38,502 nucleotides of DNA from Flavobacteriales bacterium. Its GTDB lineage: Bacteria > Bacteroidota > Bacteroidia > Flavobacteriales_F > PHOS-HE28. Positions 1 through 19,479 of this stretch are shown one piece after another. The stretch covers positions 1 to 38,502 of the forward strand of contig JADZAC010000087.1 of assembly GCA_020852835.1 (NCBI GenBank). Reading direction: 5' to 3'. Made by a program: the position numbers and the translations under genes. Each line of letters begins with the position of its first letter. Position 1 is the stretch's first letter. The notes under the pieces are model-generated. The model was given only the letters and a program-made list of their open reading frames with translations, searched no databases and was not told the DNA's origin.

Positions 1-803
1 AAGGAATACCAGAGCGCCGCCCAGTTTGCCGGGGTGCCGAGCAGCGCCCCGCGGAAGCCCTCGATGATGGGCGACATGGGGTTGGCGGCGATGACCAGGA
101 AGGATCTGCTTGCGGGATCCAACTTGCTGAGCGGGAAGATCACGGGGCTGGCGTACATGAGCAGCTGCACGGCGAAGCTGATCAGGAAGTTGAGGTCTTT
201 GTAGCGGGTGGTGAGGGCTGCCACGATGAGGCCGGTGCCGAAGGCGAGCATGAGCTGCAAGAGCAGCAGCAGCGGCAGCCAGAGCAGGGCGATGCCCGGT
301 GCCCAATGGTATGATCCGCTGAAGCGGTACGCCAAGGCGAAGAGGAAGAAGAACAGCAGCTGCACCAGGAAGGTGAACCCTGCCGAGCAGGTGGAGGAGA
401 GCGGGGGTATGAGCCGGGGGAAGTACACCTTGGTCATCAGCGGTGCGTTGGCCGTGAGGGTGGCGGCGGTTTTGTTGATCACGCCGGCGAAGAAGCTCCA
501 GGGCACCACGGCGGCCATGTAAAAGAGCAGGCCGGGGATGCCCGGCACGGACATGCGCGCGATGAGGCCGAAGACCACGGCGAACATGATGGAGGTGAGC
601 AAGGGCTGCACCAGCACCCACAGGGGGCCGAGGATGGTTTGTTTGTACACGGCGGTGAGGTCGCGCACCACCAGTTCGCGCAGCAGGTCGCGGTAGCGCC
701 AGATCTCGCCCAAGTCCAGCCGCCACCAGGGGCGTGCCGGGGCGATCACCACGTCCCAATCGCTCGGGGCCGGGGCATCAGGCCTGGGTTCCGCCGTCGT
801 CAT
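1..803 (-). CDS. ABC-2 type polysaccharide/O-antigen export permease (Wzm/TagG-like), 3' end cut off
   Basis: Inner-membrane permease half of an ABC exporter for polysaccharide or polyol chains; 267 codons are visible and the C-terminus lies beyond position 1. The N-terminal cytoplasmic part contains LRELVVRDLTAVYKQTILGP, typical of ABC-2 O-antigen permeases, followed by PLWVLVQPLLTSIMF and hydrophobic helices around residues 67-90, 97-115, 150-170 and 185-210. Late motifs include RYKDLNFLISF and ASPVIFPLS, also typical. I chose the ATG at 801-803, which reads MTTAEPRPDAP and overlaps the end of the upstream kinase gene by 26 bases; no ATG nearer the conserved region is in frame. The overlap suggests translational coupling. 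The partner ATPase (Wzt-like) is not in the window and should lie to the left. Family call is firm, substrate is inferred from the glycan genes nearby. Confidence 0.88.
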   Translation of the reverse strand, partial: MTTAEPRPDAPAPSDWDVVIAPARPWWRLDLGEIWRYRDLLRELVVRDLTAVYKQTILGPLWVLVQPLLTSIMFAVVFGLIARMSVPGIPGLLFYMAAVVPWSFFAGVINKTAATLTANAPLMTKVYFPRLIPPLSSTCSAGFTFLVQLLFFFLFALAYRFSGSYHWAPGIALLWLPLLLLLQLMLAFGTGLIVAALTTRYKDLNFLISFAVQLLMYASPVIFPLSKLDPASRSFLVIAANPMSPIIEGFRGALLGTPANWAALWYS

Positions 804-3207
804 GGTGATCATCGGCCGGGGTGCCCTGCCTGCTGCGGCGCTTGCGCCCGTAGCCGTAGCCATAACCGCCGTAGCCGTAGGCGTAGCGGTAGCCATAGCC
901 GTAGTTGCTGTTGTAGTAGTACTTGCTCTTCTTCATGCGCACCCCGTTGAGGATGAAGCCGAAGTTGGGCGCGGGGTTGGCCGCATGCACGTCCATGGCG
1001 TTGCGCACGTGGTCCTTGTTGGCAAAGCGGGTGTTGATCACAAAGAGGGTGGCATCCACGTGGCGCATCATCAGCAGGGCATCGGTGATGAGGCCCACCG
1101 GAGGGGTGTCCACCAGCACATAGTCGTAGTGTTGGCGCCCGTAGTTGAAGATGGCCAGCAGCTGGTCGCTGAGGATGAGCTCGCTGGCATTGGGCGGGCT
1201 GGCCCCGGCGAGGATCACGTGGAAATTATCGATCGTGGTGGGCTGGATGCATTGTTCCACGCCGGCCTTGCCAACGAGGATGGTGCTGATGCCCGTTTTG
1301 CTCTTCATGCCCAGGCCGGTGCCCACCTTGGGCTTGTGCAGGTCCAGTTCCAGCAGCAGCACCTTCTTGCCGGCCTTGGCCAGTATGGCGCTGAGGTTCA
1401 CCGAGCAGAAGGTCTTGCCCTCGCTGGGGCGGTAGCTGGTGAGCATCACCACGCGGCCGGTGCCTGCGGCGGTGGCCGGCAGGTACTCCAGGTTGGTGCG
1501 GATGGTGCGGAAGCTTTCGGTAATGGCCGCCTTGGGGTCGCTGTCCACCACTACGTAATTGTCGGCGACCTTCTCGCTGGCGATCACCTCGCCGAACACC
1601 GGTGCATGGGTGGCATTGCGCAGCTGTTCGGCGTTCTCCAAACGGTCGTAGAACACCACCCGCACGAACACCAGCAGCATGCTCAGCAGGCCGCCGCCCA
1701 GCAGAAAGGTGTAGAGGATCTTGGTCTTGTCCGGTTTTACCACGCCCTTGGAGCGGGCGGCCTCGATCACCTTGGTCTGGGGCACGATGCCCGCGCGGGC
1801 GATCACCGTGCTGGCGCGTTTTTCCAGCAGGAATTCGTAGAGCTTTTCGTTCACCTTCACCTTGCGCTGGAAGGCCTCCACATCGCGCTGGTTCTCGGGC
1901 ACGGCGCGGATCAGGCCCGTGTACTCGCTGGCCTGCTTGTCCAGGTCGGCGATCTTCTGGGTGATGGCTTCTCGCGTGTTCTTGAGGTAGATCAGCAGGT
2001 TGGCCTTGGTGAGCTGGATGGTCTTCTGCGTCTCCTGCACCGTGGGGTTGTCCGGTTCGAGCGCAAAGGCGAACCGGTTCAGGTCCATCTGCATCTTGTA
2101 CAGTTCGCCCAAGGTGTTCTTCAGGAAGCCGTCGTCGCTGAGCACGTAGAAGGAAGGGGGAAGCAGTTTGCCTTCGCCGATGTTGGTGACGTAGTTGCGC
2201 AGGTTGTCCACGCTTTCGATCATCAGCTGGAAGCGGCGCTTCTGCACGTCCAGGTCCACCAGCTGGTTGAAGTACATGGAGCTCTCCTTGTTGAGGTCCA
2301 GGATGTCTTTGCTGCGCAGGTAGCGCTGCAGGTCATCTTCATACTGGCCCAGGATGCCGCTGACCTCATCGAGCTGTTTGTCGATATACTTGAGCGTGTT
2401 CTCGTTGATGTCCACATCCCCTTGCAGGGTGTACCTGATGTACTCGCTGCTCAGGGTGTCCAGGAAGAGCTTGGCGCGGTCGGCCACCTCATCTTCCACG
2501 GAGATCTGCAGGATGGAGGTGTAGGGGATGTCTTCCACGGTGAGGGCCCGGGCATATTTGGCCACCTGGCGCTCGCGGGCATGGCGGATGAAGCGGTAGT
2601 CGCTGGCGGTGTACTTGCCGATGGTGGCCGCGGAGATGTCCGCGCTGGGCGTGATGCGCAGGGTGAAGTCGGCATCGGCCACATCCTTGTTGAAGGGAAA
2701 ACGTTTGGTGACCACGCCCTCGCCGGCATCGTAGCTTACCGAGTAGGTGCCCGGGTCGATGATGTGCAGGTCGATGGGCCGCTCGTAGAGCTTGTTGTTG
2801 AGCACCTGCATGTCCACGGTGAACGGCAGGTTGGAATAGATCTGGCTGGTTTTGAAGCGGCCGATGATGTAATAGGATACCTGGAAGTCGAGCTTGTCCA
2901 AGGTGCGGTCGATGAGGTCGTAGCTGGTGAGCACGCGCTTCTGGTTGACGATGTCGCCGTAGGAACTGACGAAGCCGATGTTGCGGTACATCTGGCTCTG
3001 GTAGTCGTAGGCGGTCTGGTCCTTGAGCAGGATCTGCGTGGAAGCGCCGTACACGTCGGGGATCTTGTAGGCGTAGAGGTAGGAGAGCACCGTGGAGAGC
3101 ACCAGGACGATGGCCACGAAGTACCAGTTCTTGGATACGATGCGGGCCAGGGCGCGCAGGTCGTTCACCTCGATGATGCCGCCTTTGGGGCCTGTGGATG
3201 CTGCCAT
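778..3207 (-). CDS. Wzc-like polysaccharide co-polymerase with C-terminal bacterial tyrosine kinase
   Basis: Inner-membrane protein that controls chain length and export of capsule or exopolysaccharide and autophosphorylates on tyrosine. The 809 residues show a first membrane helix near 28-48, a long periplasmic region with coiled-coil-like stretches, a second helix near 495-520 and a cytoplasmic kinase domain. The ESFRTIRTNLEYL motif precedes a Walker A (RPSEGKT, about residues 592-600). A Walker A' (LLLELDLHKPKV) has Glu where Asp is more usual. The Walker B DYVLVDTPPVG is near 697. The tail (about residues 758-785) holds twelve tyrosines in roughly 25 residues and then a basic end, fitting the tyrosine cluster of BY-kinases. 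A perfect TATATTTG -7 element lies 52 bases before the ATG. The next gene is an ABC export permease, which is not the usual partner of Wzc. Confidence 0.93.
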   Translation of the reverse strand: MAASTGPKGGIIEVNDLRALARIVSKNWYFVAIVLVLSTVLSYLYAYKIPDVYGASTQILLKDQTAYDYQSQMYRNIGFVSSYGDIVNQKRVLTSYDLIDRTLDKLDFQVSYYIIGRFKTSQIYSNLPFTVDMQVLNNKLYERPIDLHIIDPGTYSVSYDAGEGVVTKRFPFNKDVADADFTLRITPSADISAATIGKYTASDYRFIRHARERQVAKYARALTVEDIPYTSILQISVEDEVADRAKLFLDTLSSEYIRYTLQGDVDINENTLKYIDKQLDEVSGILGQYEDDLQRYLRSKDILDLNKESSMYFNQLVDLDVQKRRFQLMIESVDNLRNYVTNIGEGKLLPPSFYVLSDDGFLKNTLGELYKMQMDLNRFAFALEPDNPTVQETQKTIQLTKANLLIYLKNTREAITQKIADLDKQASEYTGLIRAVPENQRDVEAFQRKVKVNEKLYEFLLEKRASTVIARAGIVPQTKVIEAARSKGVVKPDKTKILYTFLLGGGLLSMLLVFVRVVFYDRLENAEQLRNATHAPVFGEVIASEKVADNYVVVDSDPKAAITESFRTIRTNLEYLPATAAGTGRVVMLTSYRPSEGKTFCSVNLSAILAKAGKKVLLLELDLHKPKVGTGLGMKSKTGISTILVGKAGVEQCIQPTTIDNFHVILAGASPPNASELILSDQLLAIFNYGRQHYDYVLVDTPPVGLITDALLMMRHVDATLFVINTRFANKDHVRNAMDVHAANPAPNFGFILNGVRMKKSKYYYNSNYGYGYRYAYGYGGYGYGYGRKRRSRQGTPADDHHDDGGTQA

Positions 3208-3742: not shown

Positions 3743-3750
3743 TACATTTG
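3743..3750 (+). promoter_or_regulatory. Bacteroidota -7 promoter element for the exosortase cassette
   Basis: TACATTTG matches TAnnTTTG exactly and sits 36 bases before the ATG of the PID-CTERM gene. The same octamer precedes the O-antigen ligase gene at 12814. The three genes that follow overlap, so this promoter probably drives all of them. Confidence 0.6.
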
Positions 3751-3786
3751 TCCGCGGTGCTTGTTGCCATTATTCGTTCCGTATTC

Positions 3787-4005
3787 ATGAAGAACCTGTA
3801 CCGCACGTTGCTGCTTACGGCCTTGTTTGTGATGCCTTTGGCCGGTGCCCTGCTGGCCCAGCCCGGCTCGGGCGGCAACCCGCCCTGCTGGCCCCCGCCC
3901 TGCATTCCCATTGACGGCGGCCTTTCCCTGTTGATCGGGGCCGGTGCGCTGCTCGGCAGCAAGAAGGCCCTGGATGCACGCAAGGCCCGCAAGTCCGCGG
4001 TGTAA
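3787..4005 (+). CDS. Small secreted protein with PID-type C-terminal sorting signal (probable exosortase substrate)
   Basis: A 72-residue protein made almost wholly of targeting signals. Residues 1-24 are a signal peptide (MKNLYRTLLLTALF, predicted cut near ALLAQ). Residues 25-40 are a short Pro/Gly-rich stretch with two cysteines (C34 and C39). Residues 41-45 are PIDGG, followed by a hydrophobic helix to about 57 and a basic tail with KK and RK pairs. That order (motif, membrane helix, positive tail) is the layout of exosortase/sortase sorting signals, and PID-CTERM domains are described from Bacteroidota. I chose the ATG at 3787 because the longer open frame lacks a signal peptide start. 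The stop overlaps the exosortase start by one base. After processing, only about 16 residues would remain outside the membrane. Function of that peptide is unknown. Confidence 0.85.
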   Translation: MKNLYRTLLLTALFVMPLAGALLAQPGSGGNPPCWPPPCIPIDGGLSLLIGAGALLGSKKALDARKARKSAV

Positions 4006-4562
4006 TGGCCTTCGGCATGCCCCCGGCGCGGGCGGGCCGTGATCCCTTGCTCCGTTTCCTGCTGGTCGCCGCCTCCCTCTATGCTGGCTGGTACCTCCTG
4101 TATTCCTTTGTGCTGCACCCCTCGGGAGCGTTGGACCATGCGGTGATCGATTCCTTGATCCACTGGTCCGGGGCCATCCTCACCACCTTGGGCTATGCCC
4201 TGATCCCCGAGCCGGTGAATGCCGACAACATCCGCACCATCGGTATTGAGGGAGGCCACCTGCTGTGGATCGGCGACCCCTGCAACGGCGTGGGCCTCTT
4301 CGCCGTGTTCCTCATCTTCCTGCTGGCCTATGGCGGGCCTTGGAAGCACAAGCTGTGGTTCGGCACATTGGGCATCCTCTCCATCCACCTGATCAACGCC
4401 CTGCGCGTGGCCGCCCTCTGCATTGTGGTGAGCATCAATTACGAGTGGCTCAATTTCAACCACGATTACACCTTCTATGTGATCGTCTACGGCTGGGTGT
4501 TCCTGCTGTGGTACCTCTGGGTAAAGCGCTTTGCCACGCGTACAGCCGTACCCGGCCCATGA
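4005..4562 (+). CDS. Exosortase-family membrane transpeptidase (Bacteroidota type, probably XrtX-like)
   Basis: Multi-pass inner-membrane cysteine enzyme expected to recognise and cut the C-terminal sorting signal of secreted proteins, probably joining them to another molecule. The 185-residue sequence has the exosortase triad in order: Cys93 in GDPCNGVGLF, Arg134 in LINALRVAAL and His153 in FNHDYTFYVIVYGWVF. Hydrophobic helices lie around 16-36, 50-65, 96-110, 118-145 and 155-172. It starts with ATG overlapping the stop of the PID-CTERM gene (TAATG) and ends overlapping the next start (ATGA), so the three genes form one tight unit. Its own predicted substrate is therefore encoded directly upstream. 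The family is confident; the XrtX subfamily name is from memory of Bacteroidota exosortases and is not tested. Confidence 0.9.
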   Translation: MAFGMPPARAGRDPLLRFLLVAASLYAGWYLLYSFVLHPSGALDHAVIDSLIHWSGAILTTLGYALIPEPVNADNIRTIGIEGGHLLWIGDPCNGVGLFAVFLIFLLAYGGPWKHKLWFGTLGILSIHLINALRVAALCIVVSINYEWLNFNHDYTFYVIVYGWVFLLWYLWVKRFATRTAVPGP

Positions 4563-5050
4563 ACGCGCGCGGGTTATACTGGCCCCGCCGCATGGAGGCG
4601 GCCTTGGTGCTGGTGGTCGGCATCGCCTTCGGCAGCTGGCGCGAATTCGCCTTCATCAACCTCAACTACCAGATCGACCACCTGGAACGGCATACGCCGT
4701 TCTCCTATGCCCATTCGTTGGTGCAGGCCTGGACACGCGGTTTGGACCTGCCCACATTGCTGGCCCTCAAGTGGGCACTGGCCTTGGGTTCCATGGCCGT
4801 CATGGCCGGGCTGTGCATCCTGCTGGCGCGCATCCTCTTCGGCAATTGGAGCCAGGCCAAGTTGATCCTTGCCGGTTTTGCTGCCTTTGCCCTGCTCTCC
4901 TTGGCCATGCACTTCGCCGCTCGGTGGGCACCGCCGTTCGAGCTGGTGAGCGTGCGCCTGTCGCACATGCTGCAATACCCCGTGCCGCTGGTGTTCGTGT
5001 TGATCGCCGCCACCTTGCCGCGCACGGACCGCAACCCAAAGGCGGAGTGA
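4559..5050 (+). CDS. Small exosortase-associated membrane protein
   Basis: A 163-residue protein with about four hydrophobic helices (near 11-28, 60-90, 98-122 and 138-156) and no enzyme motif that I recognise. The segment FINLNYQIDHLERHTPFSYAHS between the first and second helices would form a periplasmic or cytoplasmic loop. It starts with ATG overlapping the exosortase stop (ATGA), so it is translationally coupled. NCBI-type annotations describe small membrane proteins tied to Bacteroidota exosortases, and this fits by position, size and topology. It may help substrate delivery or anchor the enzyme, but that is inference only. Confidence 0.7.
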   Translation: MNARGLYWPRRMEAALVLVVGIAFGSWREFAFINLNYQIDHLERHTPFSYAHSLVQAWTRGLDLPTLLALKWALALGSMAVMAGLCILLARILFGNWSQAKLILAGFAAFALLSLAMHFAARWAPPFELVSVRLSHMLQYPVPLVFVLIAATLPRTDRNPKAE

Positions 5051-5072
5051 GTGCGGCGTTCAGGTCCCGCCC

Positions 5073-5306
5073 CCGTCATTGCGAGGGCTTGTGCATTTAA
5101 CAAGCCCGAAGCAATCTTTAATTGAGCTGGACGGAATTAAAGATTGCTTCGCCCGGTGACGGGCTCGCAATGACGGTGGGCTTGGCCCAGTGACGGGCTC
5201 GCAATGACGGTTGGGGAGTGGTGCCACGGCGTGTGCGGGATCACTTCGGCCTCGTGCCTCGGCCTCGTGATGACGGTGGGCCCGATGACGGGCTCGCAAT
5301 GACGGT
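5073..5306. repeat. Palindromic repeat element with direct-repeat tail (REP/MITE-like)
   Basis: The core is a nested palindrome. CCGTCATTGCGAG at 5073-5085 pairs with CTCGCAATGACGG at 5164-5176. Inside it, a perfect 16-base arm at 5108-5123 (GAAGCAATCTTTAATT) pairs with 5135-5150 around an 11-base loop. The right end is repeated: TGACGGGCTCGCAATGACGGT occurs at 5157-5177, 5191-5211 and 5286-5306, with a partial copy near 5264-5282. It fills the gap between the exosortase cassette and wecB. Similar TCATTGCGAG-type repeats are widespread in bacterial genomes. No transposase is present, so it would be non-autonomous. Confidence 0.8.
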
Positions 5307-5348
5307 GTGCTTCGGCGCTCGTTCCCCCCTCCTCGCAACAACGAAGCC

Positions 5349-5401: not shown

Positions 5402-6487
5402 ATGAAGAAGTTGATGGTGGTGGTGGGCACGCGCCCGAATTTCATCAAGGTTACACGCTTCAAGGCGGAGGCGGCAAGGCGCGGCATGCAAGTGCAGCTG
5501 GTGCATACCGGCCAGCATTACGACGATCGTATGAGCACCGTGTTCTTCGACCAGTTCGGTCTGCGCCCCGACCGCTTCCTGGACACGCCCCAGGCCAGCC
5601 CCGCCGCCCAGATGGGCCACATGATGATCGGGCTGGAGGCCGTGGCCAAAGAATGGAAGCCCGACCTGGTGATCGTGCCCGGCGATGTGAACAGCACCTT
5701 GGCCGGTGCGCTCGTGGCCAACAAGATGGGCTTGCCGCTTGCCCACTTGGAGAGCGGCCTGCGCAGCGGCGACATGGGCATGCCGGAAGAGATCAACCGC
5801 ATCCTCACCGACCGCATCACCGACATCTTCTTTGTCACCGAGCAAAGCGGCATCGACCACCTGATCGCGGAAGGCCGACCCGGGGAGGCCGTTCATTTGG
5901 TGGGCAACACCATGATCGATACCCTGGTGGCCTACGATCCGCAGGTACGGGCCGCCACCGTGCTGAAAGACCTTGGGCTGAATAATGGCGGCCACGTGCT
6001 GATGACCATCCACCGGCCAGCCACCACGGACGATGCCGGTGAACTCGCAAAACTCGTGGAGCTGATCGCCGTAGTTTCCGAAGAACGCCCGGTGGTGTTC
6101 CCCGTGCATCCGCGCACCACCGCCAAGCTGGAGGCCACCGGCCTGTTGCCCCGGTTGAAGGCCTTGCCCAACCTGCGCCTCGCCGCGCCCATGGACTACT
6201 TCAACTTCCAGCAGCTCATTGCCACCTGCGCCTTTGTGATCACCGACAGCGGCGGCATCCAAGAGGAAACCACCTACCGCCGCATACCGTGCCTCACGTT
6301 GCGCCCCAACACCGAGCGGCCCATCACCGTCACTTTGGGCACCAATGAACTGATCACGTTCGACCTGCAGGTCCTGCGCAACGCCATCGGGCGCATCCAG
6401 GCCGGAACATTCAAGCAGGGATCGGTTCCCCCGCTCTGGGACGGACATGCCACCGAACGGGTTCTTGATGTGATCGCCCGCCTGTGA
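5402..6487 (+). CDS. wecB: UDP-N-acetylglucosamine 2-epimerase (non-hydrolysing)
   Basis: Cytosolic enzyme that interconverts UDP-GlcNAc and UDP-ManNAc, giving a precursor for surface polysaccharide. The 361-residue length is normal for the family. Motifs in order are GTRPNFIK (usually GTRPEAIK) at the N-terminus, HTGQHYDD, VPGDVNSTLAGA, HLESGLRS, MPEEINRILTDRI, MTIHRP, FPVHPRTT, TDSGGIQEE and RPNTERPITVTLGTN. These cover the nucleotide-sugar site and catalytic acids of the family. The ATG at 5402 starts directly at the conserved MKKLMVVVGTRP. The next glycosyltransferase starts four bases before this gene ends, so they are co-transcribed. With no obvious ManNAc dehydrogenase in the window, the product might be used as ManNAc or oxidised elsewhere. 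Confidence 0.93.
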   Translation: MKKLMVVVGTRPNFIKVTRFKAEAARRGMQVQLVHTGQHYDDRMSTVFFDQFGLRPDRFLDTPQASPAAQMGHMMIGLEAVAKEWKPDLVIVPGDVNSTLAGALVANKMGLPLAHLESGLRSGDMGMPEEINRILTDRITDIFFVTEQSGIDHLIAEGRPGEAVHLVGNTMIDTLVAYDPQVRAATVLKDLGLNNGGHVLMTIHRPATTDDAGELAKLVELIAVVSEERPVVFPVHPRTTAKLEATGLLPRLKALPNLRLAAPMDYFNFQQLIATCAFVITDSGGIQEETTYRRIPCLTLRPNTERPITVTLGTNELITFDLQVLRNAIGRIQAGTFKQGSVPPLWDGHATERVLDVIARL

Positions 6488-17382: not shown

Positions 17383-19479
17383 ATGGACAAGATACCGATC
17401 CGGATGGAATTGCGTTGGTGCAACGTGCGCGTTTGGTCTTTCCTCTGCGGGGCGCTCCTGCTCCCTTGCTTGGCTTCTGCCGCCGTGCTGGAGCCCCCCA
17501 GCCTGCGCTGCACTTCCGTGGGCCCCGCCGGTGAGGCCGTGCTCACTTGGGTGGTGCCGCCCGACCCCAACGGACTTTTCCTCCGCTACGATGTGTTCCA
17601 TGCGACAGATCCTGCGGGGCCCTTTGCGCTGGTGGGGCAAGTGGCCACCTATGCCCAAAGCACGTTTACCCACACAGGCGCCGGGGCCGATGCGGCGCCG
17701 CAGTACTACTACCTCACCACGGTCGCGGCTGCAGCACCGCCGAACACCTCGAGCTCCAGCGATACGCTCGCTACCATGTTCCTGCAGGTAACCCAAAGCG
17801 TGCCCTTGGGCAGTTCCGTGGTGGATTGGAACTTGCCCCACGACCCGCCTTTGCCCGGCGCCAACCCTGTTGGCTACGTGCACATGGAGTACCCCGTGGG
17901 CACCTGGGCGCTGGCCGACAGCCTGGTCAATACGTTGCACCATTGGCAGCGCGTGGTTTCGGTCTGTGCCGATTCGCTCACCTTCCGTGCCACTTTGCCC
18001 GATGCCAGCGGCTGCATTTCCACCAGCAATGCCCATGGCGCCTTTTTCCAGGACATCAGCCCGCCCACGGTGCCCACCATCGTGAACCTCACCGTGGATA
18101 CGGCCACCAATCAGGCCGTGCTCAGCTGGAACCCCAGCCCGGAGACGGACACCGACGGGTACATCATTGTGCTTTCCACCCCGGGAGGCAATGTTATTCT
18201 CGATACCCTCTACGGACAGTTCAATACCACCTATACCTGGCCGCTGAGCAATGCCGGTGCCGGTCCTGAATCATACACCGTGGCCGCCATCGATACCTGT
18301 TGGAAAGGCACCCCGCCCAGCCCCAACACCAGTGCCGCATCCAATGCCCATACCAGCGTCCACCTGGCCACCACCTACGACCGTTGTGCAGCAACCATCC
18401 GTGTGGACCGTACCGATTATACAGGCTGGCCGGTGGACCACTACGAACTGTACCTGCAACTGGACCATGCCGGACCGTTGAACTTGATCGCCCTGATGGA
18501 TCCCGCCACCTACCAGCACGTGTTGACCGGAGTGCTGCCCGGGCGGGAGTATTGTTTTGTGGCCAAGGCCGTGGGCCTGCGCGAAACCCTCAGCAACCTG
18601 CACTGCCGCACCACCGCCTACCCGGCGGTACCGCAGTGGAACTACCTCCGCACGGCCACCGTTGCCGGTGAAGACCAAGTGTTGGTGGAAGACAGCGTGG
18701 ACACCGGTGCTTTTACCCGCCGCCTGCTGCTGGAGCGCAGCCACAACGGTCTGCCTTGGGAGGTGCTGGCCACCGCTGTTCCGGGCACGGCCTCCGTGGT
18801 TGCCTTCATTGATACCGATGCACTCCCCGCCGATCGCAGCTATACCTACCGGGTGCTGGTGGAGGACAGCTGCGGAAATACCGTGGTGACCAGCAACACC
18901 GGCAACACCATCCACCTGGCCGCCACGGCCGGCCTGGGCGGAGTGAACCAACTGCTATGGAACGGCTATGTGCAGTGGGCCGGCAACGTTTCGGGTTACC
19001 GCGTGTTCCGCAGCGTGGCGGACGGACCTTTCTCCCTGTTGGCCACCACCGGTCCGGCCCAATGGAGTTTCCAGGATGATGTGCAAGGGCTGTGGCAATC
19101 CTCCGGCAAGTGCTGCTACTATGTGGAGGCGGTGGAGGCCGGCAACCCCTCCGGCATCAACGCCCTGAGCACCAGCAACAGCGCCTGTGCCGTGCAGCAG
19201 GAAGAGGTGTGGGTGCCCAATGCATTCATCGAGGGCGGCTACAACAACACCTTTCGGCCCGTGCTGGCCTATGCGGATGTCAGCGGTTATGAGTTCACCA
19301 TTTTCAACCGTTGGGGCCAACAGATCTGGACCACGACCGACCGGCACCAAGCTTGGGACGGCCGCGTGGGAGGCGGGCTGGTGCCCCAGGGCGTGTACGC
19401 GTGGTACTGCACCTTCCGCAACGGAGCCGGCAAAACCGTGGAGAAGCGCGGCACGGTGACCTTTGTCGCGGGGCAATGA
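17383..19479 (+). CDS. Secreted fibronectin-type repeat protein with T9SS type B (gliding-motility) C-terminal domain
   Basis: A 698-residue extracellular protein. A signal peptide follows either ATG 17383 or ATG 17404 (MELRWCNVRVWSFLCGALLL, cut near ASAA); the second gives a more ordinary leader. The body has several beta-sandwich segments with fibronectin III flavour, for example AVLTWVVPPDPNGLFLRYDV, AVLSWNPSPETDTDGYIIV and SYTYRVLVEDSCG. The final about 90 residues match the gliding motility-associated/type B sorting domain: VWVPNAFIEGGYNNTFRPV, YEFTIFNRWGQQIWTT, QAWDGRVGGGLVPQGVYAW. Such domains direct transport through the type IX system to the surface. No catalytic domain is visible; a surface adhesin or structural role is plausible. 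T9SS machinery genes are not in this window. Confidence 0.85.
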   Translation: MDKIPIRMELRWCNVRVWSFLCGALLLPCLASAAVLEPPSLRCTSVGPAGEAVLTWVVPPDPNGLFLRYDVFHATDPAGPFALVGQVATYAQSTFTHTGAGADAAPQYYYLTTVAAAAPPNTSSSSDTLATMFLQVTQSVPLGSSVVDWNLPHDPPLPGANPVGYVHMEYPVGTWALADSLVNTLHHWQRVVSVCADSLTFRATLPDASGCISTSNAHGAFFQDISPPTVPTIVNLTVDTATNQAVLSWNPSPETDTDGYIIVLSTPGGNVILDTLYGQFNTTYTWPLSNAGAGPESYTVAAIDTCWKGTPPSPNTSAASNAHTSVHLATTYDRCAATIRVDRTDYTGWPVDHYELYLQLDHAGPLNLIALMDPATYQHVLTGVLPGREYCFVAKAVGLRETLSNLHCRTTAYPAVPQWNYLRTATVAGEDQVLVEDSVDTGAFTRRLLLERSHNGLPWEVLATAVPGTASVVAFIDTDALPADRSYTYRVLVEDSCGNTVVTSNTGNTIHLAATAGLGGVNQLLWNGYVQWAGNVSGYRVFRSVADGPFSLLATTGPAQWSFQDDVQGLWQSSGKCCYYVEAVEAGNPSGINALSTSNSACAVQQEEVWVPNAFIEGGYNNTFRPVLAYADVSGYEFTIFNRWGQQIWTTTDRHQAWDGRVGGGLVPQGVYAWYCTFRNGAGKTVEKRGTVTFVAGQ

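Follow-up and report, generated by a model that had tools for sequence, protein, structure and literature searches.

The 38,502-nucleotide stretch of DNA analysed here (the window) carries what is probably a one-substrate exosortase module, in which the exosortase XrtX would cut a PID-CTERM peptide and join it to an acceptor serving a glycan exported by Wzc, Wzm and Wzt. The system is already known in kind; this variant has a single peptide substrate, which contains two cysteines, and is locked to a locus for ABC-type polysaccharide export. What is new is the one-to-one pairing of XrtX and PID protein, the two-cysteine peptide with a predicted length of ~17–19 residues, the linkage to wzc–wzm/wzt and the homology of the membrane partner to that of XrtF.

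Three overlapping reading frames, divergent from a gene for a Wzc-like kinase, make up the cassette (positions 3,787–5,050, forward strand). They encode a PID-CTERM substrate of 72 residues (3,787–4,005), the exosortase XrtX of 185 residues (4,005–4,562) and an XrtX-associated membrane partner of 163 residues (4,559–5,050). As an earlier note on this DNA had described, a TAATG overlap at 4,005 joins the PID gene to xrtX and an ATGA overlap at 4,559–4,562 joins xrtX to the partner gene. The Wzc-like chain-length/tyrosine autokinase is encoded on the reverse strand (778–3,207) and was recognized by its match to TIGR01007 (153 bits), by the Pfam domains Wzz, GNVR and AAA_31 and by synteny. Since this divergent gene starts at 3,207, it is separated from the PID gene by 579 bp, which confirms the long intergenic region noted previously. 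A single promoter had also been proposed. The Bacteroidota −7 type promoter motif TAnnTTTG is found at 3,743–3,750 on the forward strand, 44 bp ahead of the PID start codon; of 26 loci tested, 25 have this motif in the upstream 120 bp, where shuffling gives an expectation of ~1.5, and its spacing to the start codon is 22–46 bp in the loci that have it. This recurrence supports a single promoter for the cassette, and the retention of the cassette across the order and beyond argues against a chance arrangement.

The PID protein scores 29.3 bits against the PID_CTERM family (NF046080; membership at 26 bits or more, with a PID motif, a helix and a basic tail as family traits), which bears out its initial description as a PID-signal protein, and its assignment draws in addition on alignment and codon comparison. 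It displays, in order, a signal peptide, Gln25, the two-cysteine core CWPPPC, the PIDGG sorting motif, a transmembrane helix and a basic tail. Gln25 is the probable mature start and fits the Bacteroidetes Q-rule, by which a glutamine at this position is converted to pyroglutamate (PMC5837995). If signal peptidase cleaves ahead of Gln25 and a second cut falls near the PID motif, the mature peptide is expected to comprise ~17–19 residues (QPGSGGNPPCWPPPCIP, reaching the PID motif). The ‘small protein' of the earlier note thus stands as a PID substrate, with the correction that its processed form would be a peptide of this length.

The 13-codon core PCWPPPCIPIDGG is encoded by 28 different DNA sequences in 28 loci, the only kind of residue change being an Ile-to-Val replacement seen in two of them; as these loci were chosen by the PCWPPPCIPIDGG motif itself, the count is one of varying bases and unvarying residues. 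The same core is present in unselected loci of the genus, and the peptide core is under strong protein-level constraint. Its length, its probable pyroglutamate start, its near-invariant sequence and its single copy would also suit a peptide with both ends blocked that XrtX releases instead of attaching, and that serves as a secreted signal or in a structural role. We consider such a role improbable, as no receptor gene is seen in the cassette and exosortase-family processing is thought to leave its products attached to the surface (PMC11980579).

In more distant PID proteins the filling of the core is altered (for example CGGPFGPAC, CDGPFGPVC and CWPAPC, among others), and the last cysteine always lies 1–3 residues ahead of the PID motif (70 of 70 adjacent PIDs with at least two cysteines). 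A cysteine so placed would be compatible with acylation of the MYXO-CTERM kind, yielding a C-terminal lipopeptide with XrtX acting only as a protease, and cleavage by myxosortase does need an invariant cysteine (PMC11980579). This reading is unlikely, if slightly less so than release of a free peptide: in Chitinophagaceae-like and Hymenobacter genomes that encode XrtX, the PIDs lack a cysteine at this place, and the presence of two cysteines rather than one suggests a disulfide, which we propose would link the two within the peptide.

The 185-residue protein, initially described as a Cys-Arg-His exosortase, lies narrowly over the NCBIfam cut-off for exosortase X (NF046081; 171.7 bits against 170). 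It also reaches 48.5 bits, against a cut-off of 23, for the exosortase/archaeosortase superfamily (TIGR04178), whose members are multi-span membrane proteins with a conserved Cys-Arg-His triad. All 68 aligned XrtX relatives match NF046081 with E<1e-30, and Cys93, Arg134 and His153 are invariant among the 68 aligned exosortase sequences. The contrary outcome that the earlier note had envisaged, a profile search showing that this protein is no exosortase, did not occur. The AF2 models of the exosortase (pLDDT 92) and of its partner (pLDDT 94) are confident; no solved structure or fold match was found for either.

The small membrane partner is a relative of the XrtX-associated membrane family (NF046082) and no formal member, since its score of 28.8 bits is below the curated threshold of 75, and to this extent its proposed role is supported; 65 of 67 aligned partners match the same family at E≤0.01. 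A membrane ORF of fitting size is found downstream of xrtX in 75 of the loci examined, with a four-base overlap in 38, a count that leans towards finding a partner because the search demanded a membrane ORF. Profile comparison (hhalign) with the XrtF partner gives a probability of 91%, against at most 0.7% for reversed and shuffled controls, and the two are remote homologues. The XrtF system (TIGR04128/TIGR04127; Fjoh_1448/1449) resembles the window cassette in that its exosortase is related and the gene after it encodes a homologous partner, but the window XrtX falls under the XrtF cut-off (80.5 against 90). No hidden small substrate was seen beside xrtF in 16 loci. Flavobacterium johnsoniae forms much less biofilm and colonizes surfaces less when either xrtF or the partner gene is deleted (PMC10936215).

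Enzyme and substrate are paired one to one. In the genome of the window, a single exosortase and a single PID protein exceed their cut-offs, and the search for other PID-CTERM proteins that the earlier note had advised returned no further credible one in this genome. Of 45 same-order genomes, 40 contain one XrtX, 39 contain one PID protein and five contain neither; all 39 with a detectable PID have exactly one, adjoining exactly one XrtX, the PID gene immediately preceding xrtX in the same orientation. In the lone genome of the order with XrtX and without PID, xrtX sits at the start of a contig. In 395 genomes from the phylum, PID and an above-cut-off XrtX occur together in 44 of 46 (p about 3e-41, a statistic that ignores relatedness); at this level PID genes are often multi-copy and, in the loci read, mostly apart from xrtX, and the PID proteins read contain no cysteine. 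Relatives carrying xrtX far from any PID gene, which the earlier note had regarded as damaging to its proposal, thus do exist, mainly in Chitinophagaceae-like branches; none was found in the genus of the window. The PID proteins read in Chitinophagaceae-like and Hymenobacter relatives with XrtX are cysteine-free near the PID motif, and the Chitinophagaceae-like systems differ from that of the window in that their PIDs (those read) are cysteine-free, are often multi-copy and lie away from xrtX. In one locus (L177), xrtX has a divergent wzc as its direct neighbour and a two-cysteine PID protein is encoded ~7.8 kb off on the opposite strand, indicating that the substrate can become unlinked.

The stable glycan gene linked to the cassette is wzc, followed by the ABC exporter genes wzm/wzt; wecB and the glycosyltransferase genes are replaceable. 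All 20 genus-level loci (20 kb each) have a divergent, adjacent wzc, and wecB and glycosyltransferases vary among them. The association with glycan genes put forward earlier therefore holds for wzc with wzm/wzt and fails for wecB. In the window the latter (5,402–6,487, forward strand; UDP-GlcNAc 2-epimerase, TIGR00236, 269.9 bits) is the first of the locus-specific glycan genes; it was rejected as a conserved partner of the cassette, being undetected in most sampled same-genus 20-kb loci.

The window begins inside wzm, encoding the membrane protein of an ABC-2 polysaccharide exporter (1–818, reverse strand; the contig end cuts the gene and its 5′ limit is approximate), with 81% identity over 258 residues to the wzm product of locus L046, which matches ABC2_membrane. 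All 36 genus-level loci that extend far enough carry wzm behind wzc (some representing one genome counted twice), as do, within 8 kb, 12 of 27 other loci; wzt is usually present too, behind wzc/wzm. Among 72 scorable loci, a divergent wzc is found with 55 of 64 two-cysteine PIDs, the adjacent gene being missing in nine such loci, against none of five cysteine-free PIDs; these loci are not independent, as PID types cluster by descent in the XrtX tree. Two-cysteine PID and divergent wzc travel together, and shared ancestry contributes. In the phylum sample, 5 of 55 genomes have wzc no more than 5 kb from xrtX, where a rough uniform model predicts ~0.2, and sampled XrtX genes outside the lineage of the window are mostly not beside wzc. 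Sulfotransferase genes come after wzc/wzm/wzt in the loci examined, and those near wzc in loci L042, L046 and L036 suggest a sulfated exported glycan.

We infer the processing of the PID peptide from its family, and the acceptor from this linkage. The PID protein would be exported by Sec, and signal peptidase I would expose Gln25, which would probably be cyclized to pyroglutamate. XrtX and its partner would then cut at the PID motif, leaving the helix behind, and by transpeptidation XrtX would join the new C terminus of the ~17–19-residue peptide to a surface acceptor. Since the Wzc/Wzm/Wzt export operon lies opposite the cassette, the conjugate likely serves a surface glycan, most likely the one exported by Wzc/Wzm/Wzt, as an end-cap, an anchor or a retention tag. 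The joining of the small protein to the local polysaccharide by the exosortase, as first suggested, is plausible from the gene arrangement. The glycan, or its lipid-linked form, is tentatively proposed as the acceptor; the more specific reading, that XrtX joins a ribosomal two-cysteine peptide to the exported polysaccharide and so provides a glycan with an encoded end-cap or anchor, is possible and somewhat doubtful. Against a glycan acceptor, the group attached by the archaeosortase ArtA of archaea is a lipid and not a glycan, the ArtA substrates being lipid-anchored with archaetidylethanolamine implicated (PMC7157517). Attachment to a membrane phospholipid, as has been proposed for ArtA, is the strongest alternative; we rank cysteine acylation and a freely released signalling peptide below it. 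The lipid-anchored peptide might then regulate the Wzc/Wzm exporter or be a small accessory to it, which would agree with linkage of the cassette to wzc and not to sugar-transfer genes, but no lipid-synthesis gene was recognized among the neighbours examined; we regard it as possible without expecting it.

To our knowledge, the group that exosortases attach to their substrates is an open question, in part owing to the many substrates that a genome often encodes. With a single enzyme, a single partner and one short peptide next to a polysaccharide exporter, the cassette is a minimal system in which mass spectrometry could identify what is attached. Our literature search found no experiment on any XrtX and no published work naming PID-CTERM. 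Compared with the NCBIfam XrtX/PID-CTERM system, the window has an exosortase and a sorting motif over the cut-offs (NF046081 and NF046080) and a partner related to NF046082; it differs in the partner scoring under that cut-off, in its single adjacent two-cysteine substrate per genome and in its divergent wzc–wzm–wzt operon. The proteobacterial PEP-CTERM/XrtA (EpsH) system likewise ties an exosortase to exopolysaccharide genes, but there one genome can carry dozens of substrates, with more than 60 in Aquincola (PMC9850573), in contrast to the one peptide of the window cassette.

Two further features of the window were observed. Between the partner gene and wecB (5,070–5,308) lies a 34-nt tandem repeat with CTCGCAATGACGG palindromic arms, whose 19-nt core has nine exact copies on six contigs of the genome; it is a dispersed REP/MITE-like element. 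Further downstream, positions 17,386–19,479 encode a large secreted protein with a CHU_C/type IX secretion C-terminal domain.
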